Both the position numbers and the translations under genes were made by a program. DNA of 64,000 nucleotides from assembly GCF_024723825.1 (NCBI RefSeq), contig NZ_JANQBQ010000001.1, forward strand, positions 3,286,001 to 3,350,000, in the 5' to 3' direction. This document shows positions 1 through 13,288 of the stretch, in pieces. Source of the DNA: Romboutsia lituseburensis (GTDB taxonomy: Bacteria; Bacillota; Clostridia; Peptostreptococcales; Peptostreptococcaceae). Under the pieces are notes generated by a model. It did not search any database and had not been told where the DNA came from. It worked only from the letters and a program-made list of their open reading frames with translations. The first letter of the stretch is position 1; every line of letters begins with the position of its first letter.

Positions 1-849
1 AGTCCTGATGAAATACTTCCTTTGATTGAAGAACAAAGAGTTAGTATAACAGGTTTAGTTCCAGCTATGGCAGTTATGTGTGCAGATTTTATAAAAGATT
101 ATGATGATTATAACTTAGAGTCATTAAAGGTTTTACAAGTTGGAGGGTCAGTTTTGGATTCGAAAACTGCGAAAAATATTTCAAACACATTTGGTTGCAA
201 GTTACAACAAATATTTGGAATTGCAGAAGGATTAATATGTTGTACTTCATTAGATGATGAAGATGAGATAATTTATAATTGCCAAGGGACTCCTATTAGT
301 GATATGGATGAAGTTCTTATAGTTGATGAAGATGAGAATGAAGTAGAAGCTGAAAATTATGGAGAGTTAATTGTAAGAGGACCTTATACTATTCATGGAT
401 ACTACAATCTAGAAGAAGTAAACAAAAAGTGCATTAATAAAAATGGATTCTTTAAAACTGGTGATAAGGCTAGGGTATTAAAAAATGGAAATTACCAAAT
501 AGCTGGAAGAATAAAGGAAATGATTAATAGAGCAGGAGAGAAAATAACACCATTTGAACTGGAAGATATTTTATTAAAAAATAACTATATAAAAAATGTG
601 CAAGTTGTTGGCATAAAAGATAATTTCTTAGGTGAAAGAATTTGTGTATTTATTTTAAAAGATAATAATAAGGAGTTATCATTAGAAGAAGTAAGAATGT
701 TTTTAGTTGAAAAAGGGGTAGCTACATTTAAATTACCAGATCAAATTTTATATGTTGAAGATTGGCCACTAACTAGTGTAGGTAAAATTAGTAAAAATAA
801 ACTAAAAGAGATTGCTTTAGAAAACAACTTAGTTGAGGAGGTATTATAG
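1..849 (+). CDS. Aryl acid-AMP ligase (salicylate or 2,3-dihydroxybenzoate), 5' partial
   Basis: C-terminal 282 residues of a stand-alone adenylation enzyme of the EntE/DhbE/YbtE/PchD family. These enzymes activate salicylate or 2,3-dihydroxybenzoate as the acyl-AMP and load it onto an aryl carrier protein. The frame is open from base 1, so the true start lies upstream of the window. Visible family motifs are GELIVRGPYTIHGYYN, FKTGDKARVLKNG, the hinge GRIKEMINRAGEKI and the C-terminal catalytic lysine region LTSVGKISKNKL, all aligning closely with the EntE C-terminus from memory. The next gene starts inside its stop codon (TAGTG) and begins with an aryl carrier domain, its expected partner. 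The pocket residues that separate salicylate from dihydroxybenzoate lie mostly upstream, so the substrate is undecided. Confidence 0.9.
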   Translation, partial: SPDEILPLIEEQRVSITGLVPAMAVMCADFIKDYDDYNLESLKVLQVGGSVLDSKTAKNISNTFGCKLQQIFGIAEGLICCTSLDDEDEIIYNCQGTPISDMDEVLIVDEDENEVEAENYGELIVRGPYTIHGYYNLEEVNKKCINKNGFFKTGDKARVLKNGNYQIAGRIKEMINRAGEKITPFELEDILLKNNYIKNVQVVGIKDNFLGERICVFILKDNNKELSLEEVRMFLVEKGVATFKLPDQILYVEDWPLTSVGKISKNKLKEIALENNLVEEVL

Positions 850-3800
850 TGAGTAATGTAGACTATAAAAATGAAGCTAAGGATTTTATAAATAGTGAAG
901 CTTGTAAATTATTAAATAAAACAGATATAAGTTTAAAATATAATTTAATAGAAATGGGAATTAGTTCTATTCAAGTTATGAAAATATCTAGTAGTCTTAG
1001 AAAATTTGGCATAATTATTCCTTTTGCTAAATTAATTTCAAATCCAACTATTGAAAAATGGAATGAATTAGTAGATAGGTCAAAGTTAAAAAAAATCAAA
1101 AAGTATAACAAAGACACTAATAAAGAATATGATGAAGATTCTTTTGCACTTACAGATGTGCAACAGGCTTATTGGGTAGGAAGGGAAGATGATCAACCCT
1201 TAGGAGGAGTTAGTTGCCATGCGTATTTAGAGTTTGATGGAGAAAATATTAATCCGAATAAATTAGAAAAAGCATGGAATACAATACAAAATTATCATCC
1301 TATGTTAAGAGCTAAATTTTTAGAAAATGGTAGACAAATTATAATGAATAAACCTTACTCAGAAAATATTGATATATATGATTTGACTTCACTTACAAAA
1401 AAAGATTTAGAAATTGAATTAGATAAAATAAGAGAAAAAATATCAAATAGAAAGCTTGATGTTGAAAAAGGTCAAGTAGCAGGATTAGCTATAAGTATTC
1501 TTCCTAATAATAATTCAAGAGTTCACATAGACATAGATTTATTAGTAGCTGATGTAATGAGTATGAGTATTTTAATAGAGGATTTATCAAAAGCGTATAA
1601 TGGGGAAAAATTTATACATAGTGAAAGTAAAACCTTTAAAGACTATCTTTTATCAAGAAATGAATCTGAAAAAAATGAGGAAGATAAAGCCTTTTGGAAT
1701 GAAAAGATAAAAACTTTTTCAGAAGAAATTAGACTACCTTTTGTAAAAAAACCAGAGTTGGTACATAATCCTAAATTTAAAAGAAAAAGTAAAATTATTG
1801 AAAAAAATATATGGCAAAAGATAAAAAATAAAGCGACATCTTATAAACAAACTCCATCCATGTTTTTACTTACATGCTATGCATTAATACTTGAAAGATG
1901 GTGCAAACAAGAACAGTTTTTAATAAATATTCCTTTGTTTAATAGAAGTTATAATGAAGACTATACACAAAATATGGTTGCAGACTTTACAAATTTATTA
2001 TTATTAGAATTTAATAAAAAAGATTGTAATACATTCTTGCAAACAATAGAAACTATAAACAAAACTTTTGTTGATAATGTTAATCATTCTAATTATTCTG
2101 GAGTTTTAGTGCAAAGAGATATATTCAAATTAAAGGGTGAATCTTACTTGGTCGCACCTGTTGTATTTGCTTGCAATATAGACACGCCACTAGAAACTAA
2201 AAATTCACAAAAGGCTTTTGGCAAGTTAAATTATATGATATCTCAAACTCCACAAGTTTGGTTGGATTTCCAAAGTTATATAAATGATGAAGGTCTAGTA
2301 TTAGCTTGGGATTTTGTTGAAGAAATTTTCCCAAAAGAACTTATTGACGACATGTTTAGCTCATTAGTAGAGTTAATATATTTATTAGAGAAAGAAGATA
2401 ATTGGGATATAAATATAGACGTACTACCTAAAAAACAAAAAAAACAAAGAGAAGAGGATGTTAATAATATACTTCCATTGAAATATCCTGAAAAATTATT
2501 ATATTCAGAATTTGTAAAAAAGTCCATAGAATATCCAAACAAAAGCGCTTTAGTAGATGGAACAAATCATACAATTTTGACTTATTCACAACTTTACAAT
2601 AAATCTCTTAAGGTGGCTACTAACTTAATAAATAATGGAGTTAGAAAAGGCGATTGCATAGGAATTATTTTGAAAAGAGGGCTAAGCCAAATCGAAGGAA
2701 TTATTGGAATATTATTTGCTGGAGCAACGTATATTCCAATTGGTCATAATCAACCAAAATCACGAAGAGAGAAAATATATGAACAAGTAGGGATAAAAAC
2801 AATATTAACAGATAAAGAAGTAGAAGAAGAAAATGATTTAAATGCAGATAGCGTAAAAATTATATATATAGATGATAATATCACAGGGGAAACTTTAAGT
2901 AAACCTATTGATATACATCCAAGTAGTAGTGCATATATAATTATGACATCAGGATCAACAGGAATGCCAAAAGGAGTAGAAATAACTCATAGAAGTGCTG
3001 TAAATACAATTGATGATATTAATAATAAATATAATATATCTAAAGAAGATAGCATACTTTGTGTATCTGCTATAGATTTTGACCTTTCTGTGTATGATAT
3101 ATTTGGACTTTTATCAGTAGGAGGAAAACTAATAATCCTTGATGATGTAAATTTTAAAAATCCTCAGGTTTGGATAAGTTTAATAGATAAATACAATATA
3201 ACTATATGGGATTCTGTACCAATTTTATTTGATATGTTAGTAACTATGGCAGAGTCTTATAATAAAAAACTCCCAATTAAAGTTGTTATGTTATCTGGAG
3301 ATTGGATTGGATTAAATCTAGCAGAAAGATTTTATGCAATAAGTGATAATTCAGTAGTAGTTGCAATGGGAGGAGGAACAGAAGCATCTATATGGTCAAA
3401 CTTTTTAAACGTTCCTACAAGAATACCTAAAGAATGGGTTTCAATACCTTATGGAAAAGCTTTGAAAAATCAAGTTTATAAAGTAGTAGATGAAAACGGA
3501 AGAATATGTCCAAATTGGGTTAGTGGAGAACTGTGCATAGGCGGAGTAGGGGTTTCAGTAGGTTACAAAGGAGATACTGGATTAACGAAAAGAAAGTTTG
3601 TAAAAGATGGAGATATAACTTGGTATAAAACAGGAGACTTAGGAAGAATATGGGATGATGGAACTATAGAATTTTTAGGAAGAATAGATAACCAAGTTAA
3701 AATAAAAGGATATAGGATAGAAATAGGAGAAATAGAATCTTTAATTTTAGAAATAGAAGGAATTAATAATTGTAAGGTTATTACAAATAATAAAAGAAAT

Positions 3801-5594
3801 GCATTATATGCCTTTATTATAAAAGATAAAACTAGCTTAATAGATGATAGTAAAATAAAGGACATACTAATAAGTAAATTACCTAGCTACATGGTTCCAG
3901 ACAATATTATTTTTATTGAAAAATTCCTATTAAATAAAAATGATAAAGTAGATACAAAGGCTCTTATGGCTTTAGTGAATACACAAAAAAATACAAATAA
4001 ACAAGTAAAACAAATTTCTAGTTTAGAAGTTGAAGTTTTAGATATATTCAAAGAAGTTTTTGAAAATGAAAAATATAATATAAATTCTAATTTCTTTGAA
4101 ATGGGAGGAGACTCTTTAATAGCGGTTAAGACGTTAACTTTGATAAAAAGCAAATTAGGATATGAATTAAAAATATCTGATATTTTTAACAATACAACAG
4201 TAGAAAGATTAGCAAATGTTATTTATAAAAATAATGAAAATAAAAAAGACTTTACTGAAGAAGAAATAAATATACATAAATTTAAAGAAAAAGATTGGTA
4301 TAAGTTAACGGATATACAACATGCTTACTGGGTTAGTAGAAAGGGATATTTTAATAACAATAAACAAACTTCAAATTGTTACTTTGAAATAGAAAGTTAT
4401 AATTTAAATACAGAAAAATTATCTAAAATTATAAATATACTTATAAAGAATTATAAAATGCTTAGAGCTTATGTTACAGAAGATGGAACAAAGCAAATGA
4501 TTTTAGATGAAGTATATTATAATGTTTCAGAAAAAGATATATCAAGTTTAGTCTTTAAAGATAAAGAAACTTATTTAAAAGATAAAAGAAAACAATTACT
4601 ATCAGATATAAAAGATGTCTCTAAATGGCCGACCTTTACAATAGAGGTAACGAAGTTATCTTTTGAAAAATCTATTATACATATATGCTTTGATAATATA
4701 TTCATAGATGCACTAAGTGTAGGATTTATATTAAATAGAATAAATGAATTATATTTAAATATAAATAGTGTTAGTAAGTTTAAAAGAAGTGCGTTACTTA
4801 CGGATAATCTAGAAAAATATGAAATAGATAGGATATATTGGAATAATAAACTTAAAGACATATATCATGCACCCAAAATAGCTAAAATACCAGACGATAA
4901 AGATAGTTTAGAATTTAAAAGATTATATCATTTATTTGATATAAGTGATTACAATAATTTAAAAAGCTTAGCAAGCAACTATAATCTCACAATATCTAAT
5001 ATAATCTTATCAGCATTTTCTGAAATACTTCATATTTGGTCAAATAATGATAAGTATACGATTAATATTACAACTATAGAAAATACATTAGATAAGTATG
5101 AATTTATGGGCGAGGTGGGAGATTATACATCAACATTTTTAAATAGTATAATTTATGAAAAAGAAGATAGTTTTTATGATAGAACTAAGAAAATTCAAAA
5201 ATCTATGATAAAGAATATGGAACATTTAAGTTACAGTGGAGTAAATGTAATAAGAGATTTAAACAAAGAATATAAAAACATATCAATGCCAATTGTATAC
5301 ACAAGTACTATTGGAGTAATTAATAATATAGATACTAAAAATATTGGAGATATTGTATTTTCGATAACTCAAACTCCTAATGTATATTTAGATTGTCAAG
5401 TAAGTTTTGTAGAAGGAAGATTAATGGTAAATTGGGATTATTTATCTAGTGCTTTTGACAAAGATGATATAGAAAATAAGTTTGAAATGTTTATAAAATT
5501 AATTGATTTAATTATTAAAGAAAAAATTTCAGATAAAAAAAGTGTTTATGAATTATTAAAAGTTAATGAAGTGTTTGAAGAGGGGGCTATATGA
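849..5594 (+). CDS. NRPS, ArCP-Cy-A-PCP-Cy (HMWP2/PchE-like)
   Basis: Nonribosomal peptide synthetase of 1581 residues, GTG start at 849 behind GAGGAGG (836-842), overlapping the previous stop. Domains: aryl carrier protein about 1-78 (EMGISS, phosphopantetheine Ser40); first condensation/cyclization domain about 98-530 (VQQAYWVGR; D230-x4-D235-x2-S238, the heterocyclization signature replacing HHxxxDG); adenylation domain about 550-1050 (MTSGSTGMPKG near 698, YKTGDLGR, GRIDNQVKIKGYRIE); peptidyl carrier (FFEMGGDSL, Ser near 1088); second Cy domain about 1150-1570 (IQHAYWVSR; DNIFID near 1280). The layout is that of yersiniabactin HMWP2 without its last carrier, and of PchE plus the start of PchF without an epimerase insert. 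It should condense and cyclize an aryl acid with cysteines. Cysteine specificity is inferred from the Cy context. Confidence 0.93.
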   Translation: MSNVDYKNEAKDFINSEACKLLNKTDISLKYNLIEMGISSIQVMKISSSLRKFGIIIPFAKLISNPTIEKWNELVDRSKLKKIKKYNKDTNKEYDEDSFALTDVQQAYWVGREDDQPLGGVSCHAYLEFDGENINPNKLEKAWNTIQNYHPMLRAKFLENGRQIIMNKPYSENIDIYDLTSLTKKDLEIELDKIREKISNRKLDVEKGQVAGLAISILPNNNSRVHIDIDLLVADVMSMSILIEDLSKAYNGEKFIHSESKTFKDYLLSRNESEKNEEDKAFWNEKIKTFSEEIRLPFVKKPELVHNPKFKRKSKIIEKNIWQKIKNKATSYKQTPSMFLLTCYALILERWCKQEQFLINIPLFNRSYNEDYTQNMVADFTNLLLLEFNKKDCNTFLQTIETINKTFVDNVNHSNYSGVLVQRDIFKLKGESYLVAPVVFACNIDTPLETKNSQKAFGKLNYMISQTPQVWLDFQSYINDEGLVLAWDFVEEIFPKELIDDMFSSLVELIYLLEKEDNWDINIDVLPKKQKKQREEDVNNILPLKYPEKLLYSEFVKKSIEYPNKSALVDGTNHTILTYSQLYNKSLKVATNLINNGVRKGDCIGIILKRGLSQIEGIIGILFAGATYIPIGHNQPKSRREKIYEQVGIKTILTDKEVEEENDLNADSVKIIYIDDNITGETLSKPIDIHPSSSAYIIMTSGSTGMPKGVEITHRSAVNTIDDINNKYNISKEDSILCVSAIDFDLSVYDIFGLLSVGGKLIILDDVNFKNPQVWISLIDKYNITIWDSVPILFDMLVTMAESYNKKLPIKVVMLSGDWIGLNLAERFYAISDNSVVVAMGGGTEASIWSNFLNVPTRIPKEWVSIPYGKALKNQVYKVVDENGRICPNWVSGELCIGGVGVSVGYKGDTGLTKRKFVKDGDITWYKTGDLGRIWDDGTIEFLGRIDNQVKIKGYRIEIGEIESLILEIEGINNCKVITNNKRNALYAFIIKDKTSLIDDSKIKDILISKLPSYMVPDNIIFIEKFLLNKNDKVDTKALMALVNTQKNTNKQVKQISSLEVEVLDIFKEVFENEKYNINSNFFEMGGDSLIAVKTLTLIKSKLGYELKISDIFNNTTVERLANVIYKNNENKKDFTEEEINIHKFKEKDWYKLTDIQHAYWVSRKGYFNNNKQTSNCYFEIESYNLNTEKLSKIINILIKNYKMLRAYVTEDGTKQMILDEVYYNVSEKDISSLVFKDKETYLKDKRKQLLSDIKDVSKWPTFTIEVTKLSFEKSIIHICFDNIFIDALSVGFILNRINELYLNINSVSKFKRSALLTDNLEKYEIDRIYWNNKLKDIYHAPKIAKIPDDKDSLEFKRLYHLFDISDYNNLKSLASNYNLTISNIILSAFSEILHIWSNNDKYTINITTIENTLDKYEFMGEVGDYTSTFLNSIIYEKEDSFYDRTKKIQKSMIKNMEHLSYSGVNVIRDLNKEYKNISMPIVYTSTIGVINNIDTKNIGDIVFSITQTPNVYLDCQVSFVEGRLMVNWDYLSSAFDKDDIENKFEMFIKLIDLIIKEKISDKKSVYELLKVNEVFEEGAI

Positions 5595-8212
5595 TAACTA
5601 AAGAATATATTGAAAGTTTAGAAGATAGAGGAATATATTTATGGGAAGAAGAAAATCAACTTAGGTATAAAGCAAAAAAAGGAAGTATGAAAGAGGATAT
5701 TAAGCAAAAACTTAGCGAAAATAAGGGAGAAATTATAGAATTTCTTAAAAGAAATAATATGTATGGCAAATGCGTAGCTAATAAAGTATATAGTAAGGAA
5801 ATATTTTTAGAAAATATAAAAAAATATATTTTAGAAAATGAACAGAATATAGATAAAATAGGTTTAGCAAATTGGATAGATTGTGCAAATAATGTTTCTA
5901 TATTAGATATTTTTAATACTTTTTATGCAAACGGTATATTTAAATATGGAAAAATATATACACAAGAAGATATTATAAAAACCTTAAACATAGATAAAAT
6001 GTACAATAGCCTTGTTAAAAAATGGATAGAGACGCTTTTGGAGAAACAAATTGTAGAAAAAGAAGAAGATAAATATTTTCTAAAAGATAAATTAATTATA
6101 AATGAAATTTCTAAAGATTATTGGAATGACTTTGAAGATGTTGAAAATAGAATAAATTATGGAAGAGAGTTCTTTGATTATTTAAAAAGATGTAGTGAAA
6201 ATTTACTTCCTGTTTTACAGAAAAAAGTTAACAGCGTAGAGTTACTTTTTCCAAATGGAGCTACCGATACGGCTATGGGAATTTATCAAAATAATAAAAT
6301 AAGCAAAGCTTTTAATGGTATAGCAAGTATGTCAGTTAAAGAATTTGTAAAATTAAACTCAAATAATAAAAAAACTATCAAGATTTTAGAAATTGGAGCT
6401 GGTGTAGGAGGGACAACCTCTGGAGTAATAGAAGAATTAGAAGGTATGAACTATGAGTATTATTTTACTGATATATCAAACTACTTTTTAAATATGGCTA
6501 AGGAAAAATATAAAAAAAATGAAAATATTAAATATGAATTATTTGATATAAATAAATCTCTTGAAGGACAAGTATTAAAACAAGATGAATTTGATATTAT
6601 AATTTGTGCTAATGTTTTACATAATGCAAAAGATGGAAATATGGCAATACAGAGTATAAGCAAATTAATAAAGGATAATGGAATATTTGTTATAATTGAT
6701 GAGGTTAGCGAACCTGAATTTTTATTGACATCAATAGATTTAAATGAAGGATTAAGTAATTTTGAAGATTGTAGAAAAGAAAATAATGAGATATTTTTTA
6801 CATACAATCAATGGATAGAGATGTTTTCAAAAGAGAAAGTAGATTTACTCGTTGATTTTCCAAAAGAAAATACTGAGTTAAAAAAGATGGGTCAAAAAAT
6901 ATTCATAGGTAGATTTAAAGAGGTAAATTTAATTAATAAACATAATGAATCTATATCTTTTGAAGGAAAACTTAAAAAAACAAAAAAAGATATAAATAAT
7001 GATAATTATTGTGATAGCAAAATTATTTTACAAAAAGATAAAAACATGGAGAAAAACATAAAAAATATATGGATAGATATATTAAAAGTAGAAGAATTAG
7101 ATGTTAATGATAATTTCTTTGAGGTTGGAGGAGATTCTCTAGTTATAACTCAGTTAATATCAAAGCTATGGAAAGAATATTCACAAACTAAAAATTGGGA
7201 TTGGAGTATGTTTGCAGATACAATAATGAAAAATCCTACAGTAAGCAGCTTAAGTTTAAAAATACAAGAACTTTATGAAAAAGATGTAAAGTTTAATGAA
7301 AAAGATATAGAACTTTTAAATTTAACAAAATCAGTAAAAAAGAAAAAGATAATACTATTTCATAATGGAACAGGTAATATAAATGTATATAAAAATTTAA
7401 TTGATGAAATTAATAATGTTAATAAAGGAAGTTATGAATTATATGGTATAAATTTTAACAAAGAAATTTTAATAGGTTCAAAGAATTTAATTAAAGAATT
7501 AGCAATTAATTATGCTAATAAATTAATTGAAGAATTTAGTGGTTCAAACTTTGAATTAATAGGACATTGTGTAGGAGGGAGTATCGCTTTAGAAGTAGCA
7601 AACATATTGAAAAATAAGAATGAAAATGTGGAAAAAGTATTTATAATAAGTTCTTACTTAAACAAACAATTAATAGTAGATAATTTAAAAGAAAATGATT
7701 TAGATAAGTTGTTTAAATCAAATTTTTTAATGAGCTTAGTATTTTCACAACTTGTTAATGATAGTCTAATAACAAAATCTGGAATTGATATAAGTTCAAA
7801 ATACATATCAGATGTAGTAGGAATTATTAGAGATAAAAATAATGGTGAATTTTTAGATGAATATATAGTTGATATTAAAAATGAGCATGAAAATTTTTAT
7901 AACTTGTATAAAGTATATTTAAATGAAAAAGAAAAATATAGCGAAGAAAGTGAAATGTATTGTACTTTCTTAAAACATTTTGAGGCTACATCAAAATACA
8001 TTCCAGAAAAATATAATGGAGAAGTTGTGTTTTTTAAATGTATAGAAAATGTTGATAATTTCATTATGGAAGAAGAACAGTATTTTTCAGATGATTTATT
8101 TTTATGGAGCAAATACTTAAAAGGGAATATAATTTTTTCTTATATAGGTGGAAATCATATAAATTGCATAGAAAATTTTGATGTAGAAAAAATATCTGGT
8201 TTATTAGGGTGA
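5591..8212 (+). CDS. NRPS termination protein: docking-methyltransferase-PCP-thioesterase
   Basis: Protein of 873 residues whose ATG overlaps the previous TGA (ATGA), so it is translationally coupled. Residues 1-55 resemble a TubC-type N-terminal docking domain (RGIYLWEEENQLRYKAKKG). Residues about 180-380 are a SAM methyltransferase of the kind embedded in NRPS/PKS (LLFPNGATDTA; motif I LEIGAGVGGTTSG near 265; IICANVLHN). A peptidyl carrier follows (FFEVGGDSL, Ser near 515), then a type I thioesterase about 595-873 with GHCVGG, which puts Cys660 at the nucleophile position instead of the usual Ser. There is no condensation or adenylation domain. The protein must therefore receive its chain from the Cy domain ending the upstream synthetase and have its carrier charged by that protein's single A domain, as HMWP2 does for HMWP1. 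Whether methylation is on N or C cannot be read from sequence. Confidence 0.88.
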   Translation: MITKEYIESLEDRGIYLWEEENQLRYKAKKGSMKEDIKQKLSENKGEIIEFLKRNNMYGKCVANKVYSKEIFLENIKKYILENEQNIDKIGLANWIDCANNVSILDIFNTFYANGIFKYGKIYTQEDIIKTLNIDKMYNSLVKKWIETLLEKQIVEKEEDKYFLKDKLIINEISKDYWNDFEDVENRINYGREFFDYLKRCSENLLPVLQKKVNSVELLFPNGATDTAMGIYQNNKISKAFNGIASMSVKEFVKLNSNNKKTIKILEIGAGVGGTTSGVIEELEGMNYEYYFTDISNYFLNMAKEKYKKNENIKYELFDINKSLEGQVLKQDEFDIIICANVLHNAKDGNMAIQSISKLIKDNGIFVIIDEVSEPEFLLTSIDLNEGLSNFEDCRKENNEIFFTYNQWIEMFSKEKVDLLVDFPKENTELKKMGQKIFIGRFKEVNLINKHNESISFEGKLKKTKKDINNDNYCDSKIILQKDKNMEKNIKNIWIDILKVEELDVNDNFFEVGGDSLVITQLISKLWKEYSQTKNWDWSMFADTIMKNPTVSSLSLKIQELYEKDVKFNEKDIELLNLTKSVKKKKIILFHNGTGNINVYKNLIDEINNVNKGSYELYGINFNKEILIGSKNLIKELAINYANKLIEEFSGSNFELIGHCVGGSIALEVANILKNKNENVEKVFIISSYLNKQLIVDNLKENDLDKLFKSNFLMSLVFSQLVNDSLITKSGIDISSKYISDVVGIIRDKNNGEFLDEYIVDIKNEHENFYNLYKVYLNEKEKYSEESEMYCTFLKHFEATSKYIPEKYNGEVVFFKCIENVDNFIMEEEQYFSDDLFLWSKYLKGNIIFSYIGGNHINCIENFDVEKISGLLG

Positions 8213-8219
8213 TAATCTA

Positions 8220-9317
8220 ATGGAAAAAGTTATAGGTATAATAGGATCAACTGGATTACTTGGACAAAGTATAATTAATTTTATGAAAGATAAATATACT
8301 TTGATAGGACTTGACAGAATAAAAACGAAAGAAGATAAGAAACTTTATAAAGAGTATGTATTTGATTTAAATTGTGAAGAAAAATTAACAGATTTCATAA
8401 AAGAATGTGACATTGTTGTTAATTGCTCAGGACCTTCGTACTTTATAAAAGATAAGGTTTTAAAAATATGTATTAAATTAGAAAAAGACTATATAGACCC
8501 ATTTGGAAGCCTAGATTTAATTAAAAATAGCTCGTATGAAAAATTAAATTCAAGAGTTTTAATTTGGTGCGGAGATTATCCAGGATTTACAGGTATAATT
8601 CCTTACTGGGTAAAATCAGAAGTACTGGATTCTATAGATTATTTAGAGATTAATAGAGGAAGTAATGAAAAAATATCTGCTTCAGCTGTGTGTGATTTAC
8701 TACTTAGTAGTAATATGAATTTTGGAAAGGCAAATTACTATTTAGATAATAATATTCTAACTTACAATAAGTCTAAAATAAAAAAAGAGTATAGCCGACA
8801 TATAGGGAAAAACTTATATATTGCAGAATTTATAAATAAAGAGATATTAGAAGTATCTAAAAAGCTTAAAATAAAAACAGCACATTTTGGTAATATATTC
8901 TTTGATAAAAAAGATATAGAATTTATAAATGAGGCTTATTTTGAAATGAGCTTATCTAAAAAAGAAAATTTATTAAGTGTGTCTAAAAGTATAGCGAATA
9001 GGTTTAACATAAATAAAACAGAAGAGAGCGAAACTTTATTTATAGTAAGAGTTTGTGGCATAAAAAAAGGTTATAATAGAAAACGAGAAATAATTATAAG
9101 TTCTAAAAAGAGTTATGATGTATCAGCTTATATTATAAAAAAATGTATAGATAACATAATCGATAAAAAGTTTGAATATGGAGTGTACAGACCTTTTGAA
9201 ATATTAAATGCCAAAGAATTAGTTGATAATATGTTAGAAGTTAACATTATAGATAAAATTAAAGTATTTGATTTATTTTCAAATGAAGCAAATATATATG
9301 ATATAGGAAGCATATAG
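8220..9317 (+). CDS. NAD(P)-binding reductase of saccharopine dehydrogenase type, likely thiazolinyl imine reductase
   Basis: 365 residues. The N-terminus is a Rossmann fold (VIGIIGSTGLLGQSIINFM) followed by VVNCSGPSYF and DYIDPFGS, the pattern of saccharopine dehydrogenase-like proteins. It does not look like the GFO/IDH-type PchG/YbtU/Irp3 reductases. In siderophore loci of this type a reductase converts one thiazoline to thiazolidine. I infer that role from position, 8 bases after the thioesterase gene and last in the biosynthetic run. The enantio-pyochelin enzyme PchK, which is reported to be unrelated to PchG, is the best analogy I can offer; I have not aligned them. It could instead act on a released intermediate. 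Confidence 0.65.
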   Translation: MEKVIGIIGSTGLLGQSIINFMKDKYTLIGLDRIKTKEDKKLYKEYVFDLNCEEKLTDFIKECDIVVNCSGPSYFIKDKVLKICIKLEKDYIDPFGSLDLIKNSSYEKLNSRVLIWCGDYPGFTGIIPYWVKSEVLDSIDYLEINRGSNEKISASAVCDLLLSSNMNFGKANYYLDNNILTYNKSKIKKEYSRHIGKNLYIAEFINKEILEVSKKLKIKTAHFGNIFFDKKDIEFINEAYFEMSLSKKENLLSVSKSIANRFNINKTEESETLFIVRVCGIKKGYNRKREIIISSKKSYDVSAYIIKKCIDNIIDKKFEYGVYRPFEILNAKELVDNMLEVNIIDKIKVFDLFSNEANIYDIGSI

Positions 9318-9475: not shown

Positions 9476-10462
9476 ATGATACAAAAACTGTATGGAGAAG
9501 TAATTGAAACCGTAATAGACAATGAAAATGAAACGGTAATAAATATAAAAAATGAGAGTGGTAGTGGACAAATAATAGTGTATAAGTTGTTTGAAGGGAT
9601 ACATTTAATATATAATAATCTAAATCTTGAATATTGTAGTGGAAGTACTATTAAATTTCAAAATATTATAGAAATAAATCATTGCAAGTTTGGCAGATAT
9701 GAATGCGAATTTAAAAAAAATAAATTTGAATATATATCTGAAGGGGATTTGGGAATTTATTTACTAGATAATAAAAAATATTCTAAAGCATTTTTTCCAA
9801 ATAGACAATATTGTGGAATTAGTATTTTAATAGATATAGATAAAATAAAAGACTTTGATTTATTTAAAAGCTTTGGAGTAGATATAACTAAAATTTATAA
9901 AAAAGTAAAGAACAGTGACTTATGTAAAATAATAAGGGCAAATGAGCAATTAAATCATATATTTTATGAAGTATACACATCTAATGAAGAAAACAAATTT
10001 TACTATATGAGAATAAAAATAATAGAATTATTACTTTTTTTAGGACAAATAGATTATAGTACTAAAAGTAATAAAAAGTATTTAACAAATTATCAAGTAC
10101 AAAAAACTAAGGATATAAAAAATTTTATAGTAAGTGATATAACTAAACATTATAAAATAGATGAATTAGCAAAATTATTTAATTTATCACAAACTACTAT
10201 AAAAAAATGGTTTAAGGAAATTTATGGAATAGGCATTTATACATATTTAAAAAATTATAGATTACAAGAAGCAGTTAGATATTTAAAGGAAAGTGACTAC
10301 TCAATGCTTGAAATATCTAACATTATAGGTTACTCAAATCCTTCAAAATTTTCTTGTGCATTTAAGCAGGAATATGGATATTCTCCAAAAGAATTTAAAA
10401 AACATATCCAAATGGATCAGTTATGTCCTTTAGGAGCAGATAATAATTATCAAATGGATTAG
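9476..10462 (+). CDS. AraC-family regulator (PchR/YbtA-like)
   Basis: 328 residues, ATG behind GGAGGAG (9465-9471). The N-terminal about 220 residues resemble the ligand-binding part of PchR/YbtA (INHCKFGRYECEFK, then a YLLD region). The C-terminal 100 residues hold two helix-turn-helix motifs of AraC type (IDELAKLFNLSQTTIKKWFKEIYG and MLEISNIIGYSNPSKFSCAFKQEYGYSPKEFK). PchR and YbtA bind the ferric siderophore and activate biosynthesis and uptake genes. Here the gene sits between the biosynthetic and transport blocks on the same strand. I infer that it senses the product of this cluster. No operator could be assigned. Confidence 0.87.
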   Translation: MIQKLYGEVIETVIDNENETVINIKNESGSGQIIVYKLFEGIHLIYNNLNLEYCSGSTIKFQNIIEINHCKFGRYECEFKKNKFEYISEGDLGIYLLDNKKYSKAFFPNRQYCGISILIDIDKIKDFDLFKSFGVDITKIYKKVKNSDLCKIIRANEQLNHIFYEVYTSNEENKFYYMRIKIIELLLFLGQIDYSTKSNKKYLTNYQVQKTKDIKNFIVSDITKHYKIDELAKLFNLSQTTIKKWFKEIYGIGIYTYLKNYRLQEAVRYLKESDYSMLEISNIIGYSNPSKFSCAFKQEYGYSPKEFKKHIQMDQLCPLGADNNYQMD

Positions 10463-10531
10463 AATTTTAATTGAAAGCTTATGTTAATTAACTAAAGCTA
10501 TTTGAAATCTAAAATACTAAGGGGGATTAAA

Positions 10532-11128
10532 ATGGAGAAATATAGAAAGAAACTAACAGTAAAAGACTTAGCAACAATAGGAATATTTTGCGCTATTATG
10601 GTTGTAGTTTTTATTACATTTTCAATGATTACGGGAGCATCACTTTTCTTTAATATGATATTAAATGCTGTATTCACAGGATTTATATTATCACCATTTT
10701 TCGTATATTTATGTATGAAGGTTGCAAAGCCTGGGATATGTTTTATATACAACGCAATACATGCAATTATGGCAGGCTTACTTATGGGACCGTTTATGAT
10801 ACCTTGGTTTATAGGAGGAGCAATAATAGCAGAATTATCTATGATAGGTGATAATACATACAAAAACATAACAAGAGTTACTACAGCTTGGATTATAACT
10901 TCTTTGGTTAGAGCAATGCATGGTATGAGTGAAATATGGTTTTTCAAAGATGCATTTATAAAAACTGGAGTATCACCTGAGCAATTAGCTATACAAACTC
11001 AATACTATACTTCAGTTAAATGGGTTTTAATAAGTTGTGGATTGACAGTTGTGGCAGCTGCTTGTGGATGCATGCTAAGTAATAAGATAATGGAAAAACA
11101 TTTTAAAAAGAGTGGAGCGATAAGATAA
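10532..11128 (+). CDS. ECF transporter S component, MptD/Trep_Strep family
   Basis: 198-residue integral membrane protein with about five or six hydrophobic segments and a short basic N-terminus (KYRKKLTVKDLATIGIFCAIM). The pattern is typical of the Trep_Strep/MptD substrate-binding (S) components of energy-coupling factor transporters. The ATG at 10532 is preferred over an upstream in-frame start because AAGGGGG (10519-10525) lies 6 bases before it. It heads a tight run with the EcfT-like and double-ATPase genes, so the three likely form one importer. In this locus the substrate is probably the siderophore complex or its metal. The same combination is remembered from the equibactin locus of Streptococcus equi. 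Confidence 0.85.
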   Translation: MEKYRKKLTVKDLATIGIFCAIMVVVFITFSMITGASLFFNMILNAVFTGFILSPFFVYLCMKVAKPGICFIYNAIHAIMAGLLMGPFMIPWFIGGAIIAELSMIGDNTYKNITRVTTAWIITSLVRAMHGMSEIWFFKDAFIKTGVSPEQLAIQTQYYTSVKWVLISCGLTVVAAACGCMLSNKIMEKHFKKSGAIR

Positions 11129-11132
11129 AATT

Positions 11133-11810
11133 ATGAAAGCAATGGAATTTGATTTTAGAACAAAACTAATAGTTCTTATTTTAAATACATATGTTGTATC
11201 AATGATTTCACGAGAGAGTCTTTTTAGCTCTCTCATACTTTTATTATCAGTTTACTTAATTATACAAGGTAAAACAAAGTCACTTATAAAATGTTTAGTT
11301 TTATATGCCATATTAATTATATTAAAGTTAATTTCTAATGGAGAAGGAATAACTATTTTACTTCCTGAGATGTTTTTATTTTTGGTAATAAGAATGATAG
11401 CTATTATAATGGCAGCGATACCTATTTTAGGTATGCCACCTGGTGAAATAGTAGCGGTAATTAAAAAACTTAAAATCCCAAATTATATAGGATTACCATT
11501 TATTTTTATGATAAGGTTTTTTCCTACTGTTAAAATTGAATTTAAAGAGGTTTTTGAATCTATTAGGTTAAGAAAACTTGTAAGCATAAAAGAACCTCTA
11601 AAAGCATTAGAGTATACATTTATTCCTGTTATGATAAGGTCTACAAGAATAGCCGAAGAATTAGCAGCAGCTTCTGAAAGTAGAGGAATATCAAGCCCAG
11701 GAATTCACACATCAAGAAGAAAAATTAAACTATGTATTAAAGATTATACTTTAATATTAATAGCTTTAATTGTTTTTATAGCTTTGTTTATTTTAGAAAA
11801 GGGGTACTAA
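11133..11810 (+). CDS. ECF transporter T component (EcfT-like)
   Basis: 225 residues with hydrophobic segments near the N-terminus (LIVLILNTYVVSMI, SLILLLSVYLIIQ), in the middle and at the end (LILIALIVFIALFIL). It has the diagnostic cytoplasmic coupling motif AAASESRGI, corresponding to the Ala-Arg-Gly motif that EcfT uses to grip the ATPases. It starts 4 bases after the S-component stop; an in-frame ATG two codons downstream (11145) is an alternative start. It is the transmembrane energy-coupling subunit joining the adjacent S component to the fused ATPase. Confidence 0.88.
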   Translation: MKAMEFDFRTKLIVLILNTYVVSMISRESLFSSLILLLSVYLIIQGKTKSLIKCLVLYAILIILKLISNGEGITILLPEMFLFLVIRMIAIIMAAIPILGMPPGEIVAVIKKLKIPNYIGLPFIFMIRFFPTVKIEFKEVFESIRLRKLVSIKEPLKALEYTFIPVMIRSTRIAEELAAASESRGISSPGIHTSRRKIKLCIKDYTLILIALIVFIALFILEKGY

Positions 11811-11812
11811 AT

Positions 11813-13288
11813 ATGATTAGCTTAAAAAATGTAACTTATTTTTATCAAAATCACAAAAAACCTTCAATAAAAAATATTAATATGGATATAAAAAAAGGAG
11901 AATTTGTAGTTTTAACAGGGAATAGTGGCTGTGGTAAAACTACGATAACTAGAGTGATAAATGGATTAGCACAAAAATTTTATGAAGGAGAATTAAGTGG
12001 ACAAGTACTTGTAAATAATTTTGATATAAGTAAAAAAAAGTTATGGGAACTAGGAAAAGATATAGGGTCTGTATTTCAAGATCCTAAAAGTCAATTTTTT
12101 GCAACTTTAGTAGAAGATGAAGTGGCTTTTGGGTGTGAGAACTATGGAATAAATGAAAATGAAATAGATAATAGAGTTTATGAAGCTTTGGATATGGTAA
12201 ATGGACTTAACTTAAGTGGTAAAGAATTATTTAGTTTATCAAGTGGAGAAAAGCAAAAGGTTGCTATAGCATCGATAAGTGCTTTAAATCCAGATATTTA
12301 TGTATTTGATGAACCATCTGCAAATTTGGATATGTACTCTGTAGAACAATTAAAACAAATGCTTGAATACTTAAAAGAACTAGGAAAGACTATACTTATT
12401 TCAGAACATAGATTGTATTATTTAAAGGATTTAGCAGATAAGTACATATATATGAAAGACGGACAAATAAAGTATAGATGGAACAAAGAAGAAGTGGATA
12501 ATATAGATGCTAAAATATGGGAGAGTTTAGGACTTAGACATTTAGATTTAAAAAAGATAGATGACTTAAAGTTAAATAACTATAATATCAAAAATAAAAC
12601 TTGTTTAGATATTAAAAACTTAGATTTTAACTATAAAAAAAATATAATTTTTAACAAGTTAAATTTAACTTTTAAAAGCGGAGAAATCACTTGTATAACA
12701 GGAGAAAATGGAGCAGGAAAGACTACTTTAGCTAAGATATTATGTGGACTATTAAAAGAAAATGGAGGAAGCTTAGAATATAACAATAAACCTTTAAAAT
12801 ATAAAGACAGAAGAAAAATTTCCTACTTTGTATCACAAAACACAGATTGTCAACTATTTACTGAAAGTGTCGCAGAAGAATTACTTTTAAGTAATGAATT
12901 TATAGATGTAAAAGATGTCTTAAAAAATTATGGATTAGAAAAGCTTATAAAATGTCACCCATCTACTTTATCAGGAGGAGAGCGACAAAGATTAACACTT
13001 GCAGTAGCAGAGGTTATAGATAGAGATATACTAATATTTGATGAGCCTACAAGTGGAGTAGATAAAAACAATATGAATTTAATTTCAAAAAGGCTTAAAG
13101 AGCTAGCTAGTAAAGGAAAGATAATAATAGTTATTACGCATGATTATGAGTTTATAAAAGAATCTTGTGAAAATGTAGTTTTGATGAACAGTAAAGAAAA
13201 AATAGAAAATATAAATATATTTAAAGATAGTAAACGTTTGTTAGTATCTATGACGAGAAATATGGGAGTGAGTGTAAATGTATTATGA
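11813..13288 (+). CDS. ECF transporter ATPase, two ABC domains fused (EcfA-EcfA')
   Basis: 491 residues carrying two complete ABC ATPase domains. Domain 1 (about 1-230) has Walker A GNSGCGKTT, signature LSSGEKQKV and Walker B DIYVFDEPSANLD. Domain 2 (about 260-480) has Walker A GENGAGKTT, signature LSGGERQRL and Walker B DILIFDEPTSGVD. Such fusions replace the EcfA/EcfA' heterodimer. It starts 2 bases after the EcfT-like stop and its end overlaps the next gene by 11 bases, indicating co-translation with the transporter set. Confidence 0.92.
   Translation: MISLKNVTYFYQNHKKPSIKNINMDIKKGEFVVLTGNSGCGKTTITRVINGLAQKFYEGELSGQVLVNNFDISKKKLWELGKDIGSVFQDPKSQFFATLVEDEVAFGCENYGINENEIDNRVYEALDMVNGLNLSGKELFSLSSGEKQKVAIASISALNPDIYVFDEPSANLDMYSVEQLKQMLEYLKELGKTILISEHRLYYLKDLADKYIYMKDGQIKYRWNKEEVDNIDAKIWESLGLRHLDLKKIDDLKLNNYNIKNKTCLDIKNLDFNYKKNIIFNKLNLTFKSGEITCITGENGAGKTTLAKILCGLLKENGGSLEYNNKPLKYKDRRKISYFVSQNTDCQLFTESVAEELLLSNEFIDVKDVLKNYGLEKLIKCHPSTLSGGERQRLTLAVAEVIDRDILIFDEPTSGVDKNNMNLISKRLKELASKGKIIIVITHDYEFIKESCENVVLMNSKEKIENINIFKDSKRLLVSMTRNMGVSVNVL

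Follow-up and report, generated by a model that had tools for sequence, protein, structure and literature searches.

How can a two-module assembly line work when two proteins each carry a part of its second module and that module has no adenylation (A) domain of its own? The question is raised by an operon in Romboutsia lituseburensis (assembly GCF_024723825.1, contig NZ_JANQBQ010000001.1, positions 3,286,001 to 3,350,000 of the forward strand); this stretch of 64,000 nucleotides (nt) is referred to here as the window, and coordinates count from its first letter. Two adjacent genes encode nonribosomal peptide synthetase (NRPS) proteins, here NRPS1 and NRPS2. In our reading, which we hold to be quite probable, they form a synthetase with two modules for a phenolate-thiazoline metallophore, of the kind known from pyochelin, yersiniabactin, and equibactin, with module 2 shared by two proteins that would be docked through a short linear motif (SLiM) and a beta-hairpin domain, and with the second peptidyl carrier protein domain (PCP2) charged in trans.

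A module cut between two proteins

The first-pass annotation of this DNA, made from the letters alone, had placed a second cyclization (Cy) domain at the end of one protein and a TubC-like docking domain, a methyltransferase (MT), a carrier, and a thioesterase (TE) on the next. Pfam matches and motifs confirm that arrangement. Pfam detects AMP-binding, two Condensation, and two PP-binding matches on NRPS1, and TubC_N (residues 4–53, E 2.4e-15), methyltransferase, PP-binding, and Thioesterase matches on NRPS2, in which it finds no condensation/Cy or A domain. The two genes overlap at ATGA (5591–5594), and their parts are as follows.

849–5594 (+): NRPS1, aryl carrier protein (ArCP)-Cy1-A-PCP1-Cy2-SLiM (Pfam, motifs)
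1137–2378 (+): Cy1, a Condensation match with the cyclization core DxxxxDxxS, here DLLVADVMS
2529–3947 (+): A domain, pocket D-L-Y-D-M-S-M-I (Pfam; usual motif anchors; code table of PMC3672683)
4035–4220 (+): PCP1, GGDSL (Pfam, motif)
4293–5525 (+): Cy2, a Condensation match with the DxxxxDxxS core DNIFIDALS
5574–5591 (+): putative C-terminal SLiM FEEGAI, codons GAAGAGGGG (tail comparison; the codons resemble the Shine-Dalgarno sequence of NRPS2)
5591–8212 (+): NRPS2, beta-hairpin docking domain-MT-PCP2-TE (Pfam)
5600–5749 (+): beta-hairpin (TubC_N) docking domain (Pfam; sequence matches in the PDB; predicted fold)
5795–6916 (+): predicted C-methyltransferase (C-MT) domain, an N-terminal helical lobe and the S-adenosylmethionine-binding core LEIGAGVGG (best matches CurJ, AprA MT2, and the DszA/DisA C-MTs)
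7058–7255 (+): PCP2, GGDSL, the carrier that would be charged in trans (Pfam; motif invariant in alignment with genome G062, below)
7346–8200 (+): TE with a Cys nucleophile, GHCVGG (Pfam; alignment)

The cut is not unique to this genome. The same two-protein layout occurs in another genus of the same family (genome G062, locus L023; 58% identity for NRPS1 and 53% for NRPS2) and in another family of the same class (G675, L101; 40% and 29%). Because these genomes share it, the split is not an error, and a frameshift or assembly break is further ruled out by the ATGA overlap and by the docking domain that NRPS2 carries. Each of the three genomes contains exactly one TubC_N domain, which in the window genome is the N-terminus of NRPS2. 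A scan of genome contigs with NRPS2 alone returned no named relative, and a scan with an alignment of two sequences gave only a 26% match in Corynebacterium.

The type of junction is already known, since according to a review (PMC9113145) a 2019 survey found SLiMs at the C-termini of Cy domains and hairpin domains ahead of MT and TE domains; the window has this Cy-SLiM/hairpin-MT junction in the middle of a module without an A domain. Free-standing proteins of about 480–500 residues with an N-terminal hairpin domain (probably hairpin-Cy) recur in related clusters (L096 and L097, both of genome G646, L095, L103, L026, and L050), and in L096 such a protein is followed by an MT-PCP-TE protein without a docking domain, which is another cut near the Cy/MT junction.

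A single adenylation domain for two carriers

That one A domain would have to charge both carriers, one of them in trans, had been proposed by the first-pass annotation, and the domain inventory of the genome supports it. The whole genome encodes three AMP-binding proteins: the NRPS1 A domain, the aryl-AMP ligase, and a 504-residue DltA. The genome-wide search of such proteins, which the same annotation had suggested, found no stand-alone cysteine A domain. With just one NRPS A domain in the genome, PCP2, if it works, must be charged in trans by NRPS1. The remaining AMP-binding matches of G062 and G675, in the part examined, likewise showed no sign of a second cysteine A domain. The substrate would be cysteine: the string DLYDMSMI is the code of EqbE, whose substrate the equibactin paper gives as “Cys?” (PMC3672683). 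The loading logic is not new, since for HMWP2/HMWP1, the precedent that had been invoked for this locus, and for EqbE/EqbG it is accepted that one A domain serves several PCPs, including some carried by a second protein (PMC3672683).

Several features that mark the pyochelin (Pch), yersiniabactin (Ybt), and equibactin (Eqb) synthetases are present, namely a salicylate synthase with a stand-alone aryl-AMP ligase, an ArCP followed by Cy-A-PCP with a cysteine code, and two Cy domains with DxxxxDxxS. The MT of NRPS2, including its N-terminal helical lobe, is closest in sequence and predicted fold to the C-MTs CurJ, AprA MT2, and DszA/DisA, and because these nearest relatives are C-MTs, it more likely C-methylates the second heterocycle, as in HMWP1. 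An N-methyltransferase of the PchF kind was considered and judged less likely, given those relatives and given that no A domain surrounds this MT. In the TE, Cys replaces Ser as nucleophile (codon 7568–7570); the same is true of L023, L101, and the other clusters with a PchK-type reductase whose motif is readable, with the exception of L097. The TE motif was not readable in L024, L026, L050, L095, and L102.

A candidate docking pair

The first-pass annotation did not mention that NRPS1 ends in FEEGAI, nor that the neighboring reductase ends in a similar tail. The NRPS1 homologs end in IEEGVL (G062) and YQEGIL (G675), and the same pattern closes upstream NRPS subunits in most related clusters. 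With FEEGAI at the end of NRPS1, the split fits SLiM/beta-hairpin docking, and the tail has the look of a typical SLiM that would dock on the hairpin domain of NRPS2. This acceptor domain has sequence matches to the solved AerJ, Kj12, and TubC domains; its predicted fold is alpha-beta-beta-alpha-alpha, and a linker predicted to be disordered comes next. FEEGAI would face hairpin strand 2 (QLRYK) with complementary charges and a hydrophobic last residue. The TubC, Kj12/rhabdopeptide, enacyloxin, watasemycin, and FR-901375 pairs resemble this one in hairpin fold and family and in a tail with a hydrophobic last residue. In the Kj12 complex, the last five residues alone bind, the final side chain is buried, and salt bridges join tail Arg -4 to Glu28 and tail Glu -2 to Arg24 (PMC6195595, PMC9113145). 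By our alignment, the equivalent of Glu28 is Lys and tail position -4 is Glu, whereas the equivalent of Arg24 is Gln and position -2 is Ala; as we read it, relative to Kj12 the charge is swapped in one pair and lost in the other.

The codons of the motif (5574–5594) double as the Shine-Dalgarno sequence of the overlapping NRPS2 gene, so that each of the two, peptide and translation signal, may limit the other.

Taken together, these parts suggest the following order of events. The aryl-AMP ligase would load the ArCP with salicylate made by the upstream salicylate synthase; PCP1 would receive cysteine in cis from the A domain, and Cy1 would form the first thiazoline. The NRPS1 SLiM would dock on the hairpin domain at the NRPS2 N-terminus, which would bring PCP2 both to the A domain, for cysteine in trans, and to Cy2, as an acceptor in trans, and the second ring would be formed. 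The C-MT of NRPS2 would methylate the alpha carbon, a PchK-type reductase would act in trans, possibly held at that hairpin domain by the SLiM-like tail that it carries itself, and the Cys-containing TE would free the product, probably an iron-binding compound resembling pyochelin.

Two sets of observations weigh against this reading. One concerns the substrate: position 278 of the A domain code is Asp in place of Asn, as in EqbE with its queried assignment, whereas the G062 A domain has Asn at that position, which is the standard cysteine code. The other concerns the tail: its EEG codons coincide with the NRPS2 ribosome-binding site, and the NRPS1 motif, taken alone, could be in part a by-product of that site.

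A similar tail on the reductase

A search of the genome with TIGR01761 gave no match to a thiazolinyl reductase of the YbtU/PchG type. The only candidate thiazoline reductase that the genome offers is a saccharopine-dehydrogenase-like protein encoded directly downstream.

8220–9317 (+): PchK/EqbM/SrbE-type saccharopine-dehydrogenase-like reductase (Pfam, fold, gene context)
9294–9314 (+): disordered tail IYDIGSI, a candidate docking motif (tail comparison; structure prediction)

It has a Sacchrp_dh NADP-binding domain and the fold of carboxyspermidine/saccharopine dehydrogenases, and it adjoins arylthiazoline NRPS genes; the label PchK/EqbM-type was set by annotation and gene context rather than by the PchK or EqbM sequences. 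PchK of enantio-pyochelin is annotated as a saccharopine dehydrogenase (PMC3377617), EqbM is saccharopine-dehydrogenase-like and required for equibactin (PMC3672683), and SrbE, also saccharopine-dehydrogenase-like, is essential for sorangibactin with a function described as unknown (PMC10127202). Because a PchK/EqbM-type enzyme takes the place of the YbtU/PchG type, as in enantio-pyochelin, the absence of the latter defines a subgroup only.

The tail of this enzyme is a feature of its family. Among 28 sampled members (the near-identical L024 and L092 are both counted), 22 terminate in G-x-[ILV], and in 21 of these an acidic residue precedes the ending; they come from Clostridia and a second class of the same phylum, as well as from Streptomyces, Azospirillum, and Pantoea. 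The same ending is found in about 3 of 286 other genes of the same loci once tail-bearing NRPS subunits are excluded (Fisher p 2e-25) and in none of nine PchG-type reductases (p 4e-5), both tests ignoring relatedness. Between 23 tail-bearing reductases, pairwise identity is 0.04–0.11 at positions -25 to -6 and jumps to 0.42–0.49 at -5 and -4; positions -3 and -1, which had been chosen by the filter, were left out of this comparison. The window reductase is predicted to be well folded to residue 351 and disordered over 355–365 (predicted local distance difference test score <50). L024 and L092 are 99.2% identical over a 1791-residue NRPS although their genomes belong to different families, which may reflect recent transfer or contamination. 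In L102 (G108), one cluster contains two PchK-type genes, each with a tail (GEL).

These observations raise the possibility, to which we give even chances, of a shared hub: the NRPS2 hairpin would first bind the NRPS1 tail for loading and cyclization and then the tail of the PchK-type reductase for ring reduction on PCP2. Stated for the family, enzymes of the PchK/EqbM/SrbE type would be recruited by a C-terminal motif to the hairpin that also receives the synthetase, and the hub would order chain building and ring reduction, a proposal that in our estimate could equally well be right or wrong. Besides the enrichment of the motif, its conservation, and the predicted disorder, residue covariation is consistent with a hub, in that where the first hairpin of a locus has a basic residue at position 24, reductase position -2 is acidic in eight of 10 cases, against two of 12 in the remaining loci (p 0.005, calculated without a tree; p 0.015 if any hairpin in the locus is counted), although the test ignores phylogeny; applied to the NRPS tails, it is weaker (p 0.07–0.14). 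The presence of a single hairpin domain in each of the three genomes with the split points in the same direction, and exchange of partners on one docking site is plausible given the affinity of 15 micromolar measured for Kj12 docking (PMC6195595). Against a hub, the reductase tails of the window and G062 (YDIGSI and WELGLI) are hydrophobic rather than Glu at -4, and therefore the affinity may differ; with these less canonical tails, the case for a hub is weaker in the window and G062 than across the family as a whole. Further, family members in L025, L087, L098, L103, L105, and L106 lack the motif, and some loci have several hairpin domains, which makes the partner of the reductase tail ambiguous there.

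The docking device itself is known. The papers on SLiM/hairpin docking consulted here, among them the review through which the 2019 survey is cited (PMC9113145), mention no tail on a PchK-type reductase, and that element may be new.

Alternative explanations

The strongest competing view of the junction is that docking plays no part, with the A domain charging PCP2 with cysteine in trans unaided and the tails being evolutionary leftovers. High local concentration could be enough for this, and in the FR-901375 system, the hairpin domain is essential whereas the SLiM is dispensable in vivo (PMC13324335). We nevertheless regard it as unlikely, as both the hairpin domain and the tail have been retained in three divergent genera whose genomes hold no second hairpin domain.

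It has also to be asked whether FEEGAI is a peptide signal at all, because GAAGAGGGGGCTATATGA encodes EEGAI and the stop codon at ribosome-binding distance from the NRPS2 ATG, such that the tail might simply be what the Shine-Dalgarno sequence of an overlapping gene happens to encode. The ribosome-binding site may contribute to the NRPS1 tail, but as a full account we consider this very improbable: of 47 short genes in these loci for which the next start codon is just as near, only one ends in the motif, and nothing in a ribosome-binding site requires the last residue to be hydrophobic. Nor does such a site explain the reductase tails, because they persist where no gene starts close downstream, the next one lying some 60–340 nt away (67, 97, 162 in the window, or 338) or none being near on the strand.

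Finally, that the locus is what is left of a larger Ybt/Eqb-type line, degenerate or stalled and with its product lost, seems to us marginally less probable still: it has one module fewer than EqbE/EqbG, and the genome lacks a PchG/YbtU reductase, but all catalytic motifs are intact, the same reduced layout is kept in three genera at 29%–58% identity, and clusters with PchK alone occur elsewhere, for example, for enantio-pyochelin and in Azospirillum.

Relation to known systems and the rest of the operon

The first-pass annotation had held that the cut point differs from those of both Ybt and Pch, which is correct and extends to Eqb, as those proteins are cut between modules. Pyochelin and enantio-pyochelin, with PchE/PchF and either PchG or PchK, share with the window two cyclizations on salicylate. 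Unlike NRPS2, PchF contains an A domain, into which its MT is embedded, and the Pch cut falls between modules. Yersiniabactin HMWP2/HMWP1 is similar in that one cysteine A domain charges carriers in cis and in trans and that the line ends in Cy-MT-PCP-TE; it differs in its three cyclizations and polyketide synthase module, its between-module cut, and its YbtU reductase (PMC3672683 and established knowledge). For the whole gene set, the nearest described relatives are equibactin of Streptococcus equi and the Clostridium kluyveri cluster CKL_1505–CKL_1511 (PMC3672683). EqbE/EqbG have a salicylate starter, a single A domain with the same code, trans-charged carriers on the second protein, and an MT-PCP-TE end, and the equibactin locus also encodes an EqbM-type protein, an energy-coupling factor (ECF) importer, and YbtPQ-like transporters (PMC3672683). 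It differs in having three Cy domains and a third cysteine, in needing salicylate to be supplied, in having a YbtU-type reductase (EqbF) besides EqbM, in being cut between modules, and in the TE nucleophile, which is Ala in EqbG and Cys here (PMC3672683). The SrbE protein of sorangibactin and the saccharopine-dehydrogenase-like protein of coelibactin are, judged by their descriptions, the same kind of accessory enzyme (PMC10127202).

The operon begins upstream of the window (locus L003) with genes for a salicylate synthase, which matches TIGR03494 well above the cut-off, a 3-deoxy-D-arabino-heptulosonate 7-phosphate (DAHP) synthase, a type II thioesterase, a phosphopantetheinyl transferase, and the aryl-AMP ligase. 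Taken whole, the ligase gene best matches the 2,3-dihydroxybenzoate (DHB)-AMP ligase model TIGR02275; its motif HNFPLGC reads as in salicylate ligases, which suggests salicylate as substrate. The remaining genes of the operon in the window are as follows.

1–849 (+): stand-alone aryl (probably salicyl)-AMP ligase of the YbtE/PchD/EqbD type, C-terminal half (Pfam AMP-binding; 5' part outside the window)
9476–10462 (+): AraC-family regulator in a YbtA/PchR-like cluster position (Pfam)
10502–13288 (+): ECF importer, with an S component (Trep_Strep), a CbiQ-like T component, and a duplicated ATPase, EqbHIJ-like (Pfam; PMC3672683)
13278–16789 (+): two fused permease-ATPase ATP-binding cassette (ABC) half transporters, YbtP/YbtQ/EqbK/EqbL-like (Pfam; PMC3672683)

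In the G062 cluster, the reductase and AraC regulator genes are separated by a gene that resembles a transposase, by eye of the IS3 kind (L023:15370–16722).

Implications

With two proteins, one A domain, and one docking domain, the locus is a small natural test case for how an A domain feeds carriers on another protein. It also shows a place at which such a line is naturally divided, with Cy on one side and MT-PCP-TE on the other, which is of use in NRPS engineering. The tail of the reductase, for its part, offers a handle on what the saccharopine-dehydrogenase-like protein of such pathways does, and where.

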